From: Chloroflexota bacterium | GTDB lineage: Bacteria; Chloroflexota; Dehalococcoidia; Lucifugimonadales; UBA826 | Length of the DNA stretch: 33,539 bases | Reading direction: 5' to 3' | NCBI GenBank assembly: GCA_002728195.1 | Contig: PBWI01000021.1 | Coordinates: forward strand, 6,096 to 39,634 | Shown: one piece after another, positions 8,419 to 10,820 of the stretch | Position numbering within the stretch: the first letter of the stretch is position 1 | Layout of the letters: every line of letters begins with the position of its first letter | Translations under genes and position numbers: made by a program | The notes under the pieces: model-generated | What the model saw: the letters and a program-made list of their open reading frames with translations, nothing else | Databases searched by the model: none | What the model was told of the DNA's origin: nothing

Positions 8419-9177
8419 CTATGCATGTGCAAGTGCGCCACCGTCGATGAAGATTGTTTGTCCATTTACGAAATCACAAGAGTCAGAGGATAAATATACC
8501 AACATTTGTGTGAGGTCATTCGGATGCCCTCTTCTTTTGGAAGGTAGATATCGATCTAATAAATCTGGTTCTGTATCATCGGATTTTTCTTCAGTAGTAA
8601 GCCAACCTGCGCCAATACCATTGACTCGAATGCCATCGCGACCCCATTCCAGCGCTAAAGATGATGTTAACTGGTGTATCGCTCCCTCTGAAGCACATGG
8701 GATTACTGAATTCCAAAGACCTCTTACAGCTAGGTCAGAGGTCATATTTATAATGTGTCCCTTTTTGTTTTTGAGCATTGTTTGGCCGACTGATTGGCAT
8801 GCCAAAAACATAGATTTTAAATTGAAACCCATCAGAGTATCAAATTCAGATTCAGATACATCTTCAAATCTTTTCCCAAAATCGGCTTTGGCGTTATTGA
8901 CCAATATGTCAATGGTGCCAAATTCATCAACTATGTTTTGAATGGATTGATCAATTGACTCTTTAGACATAAGGTTGGTCGTTTTGGTAATGACTTTCCC
9001 ACCATTGCTAGAGGCCTTGTTTTTGGCGTTTTCCATGTCTGAATTCTCAGAACCCATTATCGCAATATCTGCACCTGCTTCAGTCAAAGCTGCAGCAAAA
9101 AATCCGGTCCACCCTCTTCGATCTGCACTTATTACAGCTTTTTTTCCTGTCAGATCCCATCCTTCTGGTGTGTCCAT
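8419..9177 (-). CDS. SDR-fold protein lacking the catalytic Tyr and Lys (pseudo-SDR)
   Basis: The chain aligns end to end with classical short-chain dehydrogenases (252 residues, C-terminal FVNGQTIFIDGGALAHA), but key motifs are broken. The cofactor loop TGxxxGxG reads SADRRGWT (17-24). NNAG reads NNAK (94-97). The catalytic Ser survives (NMTSD, S147), but 13 residues on, where Tyr belongs, is P160, and the Lys position is E164 (PCASEG). No Tyr or Lys occurs nearby to substitute. The frame is intact and the Ser-Tyr-Lys spacing is preserved, so this looks like a maintained non-catalytic relative rather than a decaying gene. It follows an intact SDR by 44 bp in the same direction, with AAGGAG before its ATG, suggesting an active/inactive heteromer. 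Confidence 0.85.
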   Translation of the reverse strand: MDTPEGWDLTGKKAVISADRRGWTGFFAAALTEAGADIAIMGSENSDMENAKNKASSNGGKVITKTTNLMSKESIDQSIQNIVDEFGTIDILVNNAKADFGKRFEDVSESEFDTLMGFNLKSMFLACQSVGQTMLKNKKGHIINMTSDLAVRGLWNSVIPCASEGAIHQLTSSLALEWGRDGIRVNGIGAGWLTTEEKSDDTEPDLLDRYLPSKRRGHPNDLTQMLVYLSSDSCDFVNGQTIFIDGGALAHA

Positions 9178-9221
9178 CTTCTATTAGCTCCTTAGATATA
9201 ACTATAGTATTTTCACTGAAT

Positions 9222-10028
9222 TTAAATTTCTAATGGTATTTCTGGGGCGTGAAGGGTAGGGGCGATTCCTCCGGCTAACCCACCTCCATCAATGGCGAAG
9301 AACTCACCATTCATATAATCGGAGGCACTTGATGCCAAATATACTGCTAAAGGGCCCATCTCTGAAGGTTTCCCTACTCTACCAATTGGTATAAACCTGC
9401 CCCGTTGCTTGGCTCTTTCGCTGTCTGGATCAGTGACCTCAGTGGGTATAAAGCCAGGTACTATACAGTTTGTTGTAATACCATATTTTCCCAAGCTTGT
9501 GGCCATCGCCCGAGTTAAATTAACAATTCCCCCTTTTCCTGCGGCATACATGTAATTGTCTCTGCCTCCTCTAAACCCAAACCCTGATGACACGTTAACG
9601 ATTTTACCGCCACCATTGTCAGCCATATGCTTTGATATCTCTCTTGAACAATAGAACGCTGTGGATAGATTGACATCAATACCTATTCTCCAGCTTTCAT
9701 CCGATATTTCCCAAATTGGTTTTGCTGAATCTTCTCTGACGATTCCTGCATTATTGAATAGCACGTCGACTTTCCCAAATTCAGCTAAAACTGTATTGAA
9801 TAATGCTTTGACTTCTGTTGTATTTGTTGCGTCAGTAGAAATCGCTAACGACTTTCTGCCTAAATCTCGAACCAGGTTTGATACCTCTTCAATGGGCTTC
9901 AGTCTTCTGGCAGCAATCACTAGGTTAGCTCCAGCTCGGGCCATAGCCAAACACATTTCTTTGCCGAGACCAGTACCGCCCCCAGTTATGACGACTGTTT
10001 TATCTTGCAACATCAGTTTTTCAAGCAT
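9222..10028 (-). CDS. Short-chain dehydrogenase/reductase (classical SDR, catalytically intact)
   Basis: A 268-residue NAD(P)-dependent oxidoreductase. The Rossmann loop TGGGTGLG (15-22), NNAG (92-95), catalytic Ser of NVSSGFG (S148), Tyr161 and Lys165 (YAAGK) are all present, and the C-terminal YMNGEFFAIDGGG is typical of 3-oxoacyl-ACP reductase-like SDRs. The Arg after the second beta strand (AARR, 39-42) suggests preference for NADP(H), as an inference. Substrate cannot be assigned. GGAG lies about eight bases before the ATG. It sits between birA (33 bp upstream) and a catalytically broken SDR (44 bp downstream) on the same strand, so the three probably form one transcript. Confidence 0.9.
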   Translation of the reverse strand: MLEKLMLQDKTVVITGGGTGLGKEMCLAMARAGANLVIAARRLKPIEEVSNLVRDLGRKSLAISTDATNTTEVKALFNTVLAEFGKVDVLFNNAGIVREDSAKPIWEISDESWRIGIDVNLSTAFYCSREISKHMADNGGGKIVNVSSGFGFRGGRDNYMYAAGKGGIVNLTRAMATSLGKYGITTNCIVPGFIPTEVTDPDSERAKQRGRFIPIGRVGKPSEMGPLAVYLASSASDYMNGEFFAIDGGGLAGGIAPTLHAPEIPLEI

Positions 10029-10061: not shown

Positions 10062-10820
10062 TCATAATAAGTGACTGTTATTTACCAGAGTCACCTCACC
10101 TGCATTTGCAGTGAAAATTGAATCATCTGAAAGGCGAATTAATAGACTCCCGTCTATAGTTACTGACTCAGCTATTCCTACCAAAGGTTTTTCACTTGGG
10201 TTTTGTCCAAATGATAGGCTCACTGTTTCTCCAATTGTGCTTAATTTTTCTGACCACTGGTCACGTAAAGATTCCCCATCAACAATTTTAGAATAATAAA
10301 AATCCAGGTTTTTTATGAGTGTTTTCAGAATTACTGAACGGCTTGTATATCGCCCCTTTTCATTTCTAAAAGATGTCGCTGTTTTTTCGATACCAATTTC
10401 CGATTTCACGTCCAGATTGACATTCAGACCAATTCCAACGATCGAAGATATTACTTTGTCACCTTCTATGATTGATTCCGTCAATATACCAGATATTTTT
10501 CTGCCGTTGATTTGAATATCATTAGGCCATTTGATGGCGGCTTTACAGTTCATGACTTGCTCGCATGTTGCTAATACAGCCATTGATGCGAACATGTTGA
10601 GATATTTTAATTCACCTTGGGTCGGTCTCAGGATAATGGACATCTGAATGTTTTCACCATTAGGTGATAGCCATTTTCTTTTAAACCTACCCCTGCCAGA
10701 ATCCTGATAGTTAGCGGATACAATAGTTCCACTTTCAGCTCCCTGGGCCGCAAGCTGCGCGCAAGCTTCCATAGTGGAATTAATTTTTTTCATATGGTGT
10801 ATTTTTTTGCCGATTTGCAT
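10062..10820 (-). CDS. birA: Biotin--protein ligase, single-domain type without DNA-binding domain
   Basis: Activates biotin to biotinyl-AMP and transfers it to the Lys of biotin carrier domains such as acetyl-CoA carboxylase. The catalytic domain shows INSTMEA near the N-terminus, the adenylate loop GRGRFKRKW (42-50) and KWPNDIQINGRKISGIL (97-113) with the catalytic Lys. A small SH3-like C-terminal domain follows (~205-250, VGIAESVTIDGSLLIRL). There is no N-terminal winged helix, so unlike E. coli BirA it should not act as a repressor. No Shine-Dalgarno precedes ATG 10820; a second Met (MKKINSTME, residue 10) is an alternative start. It is the first gene of a presumed operon with two SDRs. 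Confidence 0.92.
   Translation of the reverse strand: MQIGKKIHHMKKINSTMEACAQLAAQGAESGTIVSANYQDSGRGRFKRKWLSPNGENIQMSIILRPTQGELKYLNMFASMAVLATCEQVMNCKAAIKWPNDIQINGRKISGILTESIIEGDKVISSIVGIGLNVNLDVKSEIGIEKTATSFRNEKGRYTSRSVILKTLIKNLDFYYSKIVDGESLRDQWSEKLSTIGETVSLSFGQNPSEKPLVGIAESVTIDGSLLIRLSDDSIFTANAGEVTLVNNSHLL

Follow-up and report, generated by a model that had tools for sequence, protein, structure and literature searches.

The window, by which we mean the whole stretch of 33,539 nucleotides analysed here, carries on its minus strand a pair of adjacent genes for short-chain dehydrogenases/reductases (SDRs), termed ACT (upstream) and PSE (downstream), with a GGAG-type ribosome site ahead of each. 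The features on which the analysis turns are the following.

8419..9177, minus strand: PSE, second gene of the pair, an SDR-fold protein of 252 aa lacking the catalytic Tyr and Lys and the cofactor motif (PF13561, E 4e-44)
8686..8700, minus strand: dead site of PSE, Pro160...Glu164 (PCASE)
9106..9129, minus strand: replaced cofactor loop of PSE, SADRRGWT, which the window's clade keeps as (S/T)ADRRGWT
9178..9221, minus strand: the 44 bp separating ACT from PSE, including the ribosome-binding site AAGGAG at 9188-9193
9222..10028, minus strand: ACT, first gene of the pair, an intact classical SDR of 268 aa (PF13561, E 1e-52)
9534..9548, minus strand: catalytic Tyr161...Lys165 of ACT (YAAGK)
10062..10820, minus strand: gene for biotin-protein ligase (BirA), directly upstream of ACT (PF03099, E 2e-21)

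Both proteins score far above the Pfam cut-offs for the classical SDR superfamily (PF13561/PF00106), and their best named family models are KduD-, FabG- and gluconate 5-dehydrogenase-like, none of them above its own curated cut-off. The translation of ACT contains every element of a catalytically competent classical SDR (TGxxxGxG and Ser-Tyr-xxx-Lys), with the cofactor motif TGGGTGLG and the triad Ser148, Tyr161 and Lys165. Ser-Tyr-Lys is kept in all 54 ACT homologues tabulated and the full cofactor motif in 53, in agreement with the perfect triad that the first-pass annotation had ascribed to the upstream gene. The same annotation had described the downstream protein as an SDR with exact Ser-to-Tyr spacing, Pro160 and Glu164 in place of Tyr and Lys, and a broken cofactor loop. 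The translation confirms each of these points, as Ser147 is retained, PCASE occupies residues 160-164 at the 13-residue spacing seen in ACT, and SADRRGWT stands where ACT has its glycine motif. A shifted triad of the FabI type (divergent SDR, Tyr-x6-Lys) was also considered and is excluded for PSE, since residues 147-190 of the translation hold no other Tyr or Lys.

Each of the two proteins has specifically conserved sites of its own, namely Tyr126, Arg129 and a proline tail in ACT, and Asn156, Trp192, Arg209 and His251 in PSE, in which the motifs ADRRGWTP and RGLWNS are among those strongly conserved. Additionally, an Arg five residues past the catalytic Ser position (ACT153/PSE152) is nearly invariant in both (96% and 98%, respectively) but not in other SDRs; it is possibly a contact to CoA or to the subunit interface.

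The BirA-ACT-PSE order recurs, with biotin ligase as a conserved neighbour at 24 loci and as the fixed upstream neighbour within the window's order, where histidine biosynthesis genes follow downstream in some relatives. In L040 (4418-13074), L135, L137, L050 and L181, these genes come after BirA-ACT-PSE with a gene of ~250 aa between, and by eye they are HisZ/HisS-like, HisG, HisD, HisC and HisB. Other neighbours in the window are PdxA, ProC and a TPP enzyme. The neighbours in the window are housekeeping genes for the most part and change from family to family, and the reading of a common pathway from them was therefore rejected; neither the biotin ligase nor the his genes of relatives name a pathway. 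Promoter and terminator scans gave counts at chance level.

The tandem, on the same strand and with ACT first, was found at 28 loci from 18 families in the 60 related genomes searched, as well as in further families of the Chloroflexota class and in one Syntrophales MAG. In profile searches of the 60 relatives, 30 had both genes, one had only PSE and 29 had neither. The ACT count of 30 genomes leaves out one weak match (G038), and PSE was likewise detected in 30 genomes; G026 was missed by the search, yet a divergent partner adjoins its ACT (L181), and it was therefore counted as having both. This linked presence gives a Fisher value of 5e-16 across the 60 relatives with shared ancestry ignored. 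Within the searched genomes of the genus, PSE orthologues of six further species lack Tyr and Lys, the exception being G006. The expectation that both genes would be kept side by side with the same substitutions held for the tandem and, within the genus, for the dead residues, whereas beyond the genus the substitutions are graded. The source genome itself (1.7 Mb, 110 contigs), presumed to belong to Dehalococcoidia and probably to the SAR202 clade, has about 40 SDR matches, a number that fits the SDR expansion reported from SAR202 (PMC5395668).

The graded nature of the loss emerged from a class-wide search with motif reading, which yielded 54 ACT proteins as well as 56 partners drawn from about 50 genomes, with rows picked by similarity and paralogues judged from searches only. 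The canonical cofactor motif TGxxxG[ILMV]G occurs in 0 of the 56 partners; Lys is missing from 45 and Tyr from 29, and no partner has lost Tyr while keeping Lys. In the remaining 11, Tyr and Lys both persist but the cofactor loop is already altered (for example LVIGVENGIG in L171 and IVAGNGRGWG in L149). Homologues of this kind had been named by the first-pass annotation as evidence against a dead subunit; they do exist, but as partners from the same tandem with a broken cofactor loop they represent graded loss and do not contradict it. On a tree inferred after exclusion of the catalytic and loop columns, the state of Lys changed at least four times and that of Tyr at least eight times, and among the sampled rows the order of loss is cofactor loop, then Lys, then Tyr. 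Tyr is replaced by A, P, F, L, S, T or V and Lys by Q, E, M, H, S or Y while other motifs stay fixed, a pattern of the kind expected after loss of chemistry. We lean, by a modest measure, towards a step-by-step conversion of one subunit of an SDR heteromer into a scaffold, repeated in this fixed order across the class while the active site of the partner was kept. A second tandem in G027 (L183 1-1724, G027:C7) has an ACT-type member with His and Glu for Tyr and Lys and without the cofactor motif, next to a member in which Tyr and Lys are kept and Ala replaces Ser; apparently, either the roles were exchanged or both members have degenerated.

The dN/dS values called for by the first-pass annotation speak for selection on the dead protein. 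Within the genus, Nei-Gojobori estimates were 0.04-0.13 for PSE and 0.02-0.09 for ACT, with weight placed only on the closer pairs because many synonymous distances were saturated; PSE is under purifying selection and not in decay. Decay through scattered stop codons in relatives, the other outcome that the first-pass annotation had foreseen, was not what the relatives showed: a broken frame occurs in one species only, G006 (L146 7719-8145), where just the last third of PSE lies between biotin ligase and ProC and no ACT is present, so that ACT and most of PSE were lost together by deletion. Apart from this truncated remnant, open frames in the other relatives, positions conserved across the family and a confidently predicted fold all run against relaxed selection, and a gene in decay is very improbable. 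The idea that the dead site is a sequencing or assembly artefact draws on the fragmented, MAG-like assembly from which the window comes; it is refuted by like residues in the six additional species from the genus as well as in the graded set beyond, and is left with next to no probability.

Sister clades and structural models add to this picture. In a bootstrapped tree against 28 other SDRs, ACT forms a clade with support of 100/100 and PSE one of 98/91, and the two are sisters (96/89), with rows selected by similarity and the Syntrophales row on a long branch. The outside set included BbsD, FabG and KduD, their letters taken from alignments; BbsD groups with FabG, outside both clades. Given the sister relationship and the outside position of BbsD, the pair most likely arose from one old tandem duplication separate from that of BbsCD. 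The AlphaFold model of PSE has a pLDDT of 95.3 and a pTM of 0.93 and aligns with FabG (4jro_B, VIA-align) over 237 residues at Z 35.4 and rmsd 1.5, and PSE is thus confidently predicted to adopt an SDR fold. In L039, the ACT and PSE orthologues share one frame with two TGA codons between them; reading these as Gly (table 25) gave a single chain of 533 residues with a read-through linker. It was folded with PSE rows only (six aligned rows), as mixed alignments placed ACT and PSE rows on the same half, and the resulting model has a pLDDT of 76 and a pTM of 0.81. Its best PDB match, across both domains, is the region of yeast MFE-2 that holds the tandem SDR domains (2et6; TMq 0.76, E 2e-31), followed by Chloroflexus malonyl-CoA reductase and then by single SDRs at E 2e-20. 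According to this model, ACT and PSE are able to pack in the manner of an established tandem SDR, but the model does not tell hetero from homo, as any SDR pair may come out as a dimer.

Clues to the substrate come from families and orders of the class other than those of the window, in which class III CoA transferases lie near the pair (L186, L190, L199, L140), as do enoyl-CoA hydratase (L188, L189, L201) and an acyl-CoA ligase (L188). On the Syntrophales contig (L086), the genes run CoA transferase, acyl-CoA ligase, the pair, acyl-CoA dehydrogenase and enoyl-CoA hydratase. These neighbours suggest an acyl-CoA substrate, and a hydroxyacyl-CoA dehydrogenase would be the simplest common role. 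In L201 (4849-5364), L189, L191 and L200, enoyl-CoA hydratase and the pair are also preceded by a gene for a protein of 170-230 aa whose resemblance to SDRs is confined to their N-terminal half; the L201 copy gave no Pfam hit.

Taken together, the conserved tandem, linked presence, purifying selection, sister clades, graded loss, partner-specific conserved sites, fold and fusion models and acyl-CoA neighbours make it likely that ACT and PSE are the catalytic and scaffold subunits of an obligate heteromer, most likely a 2+2 tetramer. In such a complex, ACT would bind NAD(P)H and carry out catalysis, and PSE, with its SDR fold and surfaces for oligomerisation retained but presumably neither binding cofactor nor performing chemistry, would make up the rest of the tetramer, possibly also shaping the entrance through which substrate reaches ACT. 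The complex would probably oxidise a 3-hydroxyacyl-CoA or catalyse the opposite reaction. After the single old duplication that gave rise to ACT and PSE, the heteromer would have become obligatory first, and only then would the second copy have lost the cofactor loop, Lys and Tyr.

Two other readings of an intact, selected PSE were weighed against the heteromer. PSE could be a free-standing non-catalytic SDR, such as a ligand sensor, chaperone or moonlighting protein, merely co-transcribed with ACT without a stable complex. One genome, G047 (L139 7702-8424), has a PSE-type gene without detectable ACT beside genes that by eye resemble those for phytoene synthase and desaturase, a carotenoid-like setting that favours independence. 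Elsewhere, however, the presence and loss of PSE are linked to those of ACT, which adjoins it in nearly all cases; G044 retains both genes although they lie on different contigs; and the two sister clades diverge in step, the identities between genomes being correlated at Spearman 0.81, a value that co-inherited genes would give too. We regard a free-standing role as unlikely. Less probable still is a working enzyme of unusual chemistry, with other catalytic residues or another cofactor. Ser147 is kept in most partners and the new motifs are strongly conserved, as an active enzyme might require, but the window protein has no Tyr or Lys near the site, the residues at the dead site vary widely, unlike those of a new active site, and not one partner has the canonical cofactor motif.

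Dead enzyme subunits are common, whereas preserved intermediate steps are rare. Among living relatives of the window's pair, the same working enzyme is accompanied by a partner that has kept Tyr and Lys, has lost Lys alone or has lost both. This graded series, the most useful part for specialists, allows one to test whether dependence on the heteromer precedes the loss of chemistry. Part of the SDR surplus in deep-ocean SAR202-like Chloroflexota may furthermore consist of structural subunits and not of separate oxidising enzymes; no report of catalytically inactive SDR subunits from SAR202 came up in the literature searched.

Several known systems share parts of this architecture. The (3R)-hydroxyacyl-CoA dehydrogenase region of yeast MFE-2 (2et6) likewise consists of two tandem SDR domains packed together, but it is eukaryotic, lies on one polypeptide, and both of its SDR domains are catalytic. 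The human mitochondrial ketoacyl reductase HSD17B8/CBR4 and the SCR-SCR2 hetero-oligomer (7dn1, by entry title) are heteromeric SDRs too; unlike PSE, the subunits of both are not known to be catalytically dead.

The closest parallel is BbsCD, reported as a heterotetrameric SDR with an inactive pseudoenzyme subunit (von Horsten et al., FEBS J 2021, as cited in PMC10818641). It was the model invoked by the first-pass annotation, which raised the possibility of an independent case; the intact and dead pair is indeed conserved and apparently independent, while the heteromer is reported for BbsCD and predicted for ACT-PSE. No BbsC or BbsD orthologues were found at E 1e-65 in 399 genomes from the order of a Ramlibacter genome, a result that is uninformative in having no positive control, and a plasmid search with the Syntrophales PSE returned, among the matches listed, ordinary SDR annotations only. 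BbsC (7pcs_A) ranks 40th for PSE with a score no better than those of ordinary SDRs, and the absence of 7pcs from the 50 VIA-align matches listed is not evidence against likeness. The differences are that BbsD falls with FabG, so ACT is not its orthologue; that the phylum is another and the window has no bss/bbs operon for benzylsuccinate beta-oxidation; and that the pseudoenzyme gene comes first in bbsCD, as far as primer names in PMC10818641 indicate, whereas the active gene comes first in ACT-PSE. Both systems nevertheless consist of tandem SDR genes for one active and one inactive subunit, set in CoA-linked beta-oxidation with CoA transferase, acyl-CoA dehydrogenase and enoyl-CoA hydratase, which for ACT-PSE are found in relatives. 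The best reading of these comparisons is that ACT-PSE resembles BbsCD in anatomy and CoA setting and probably had a separate origin.
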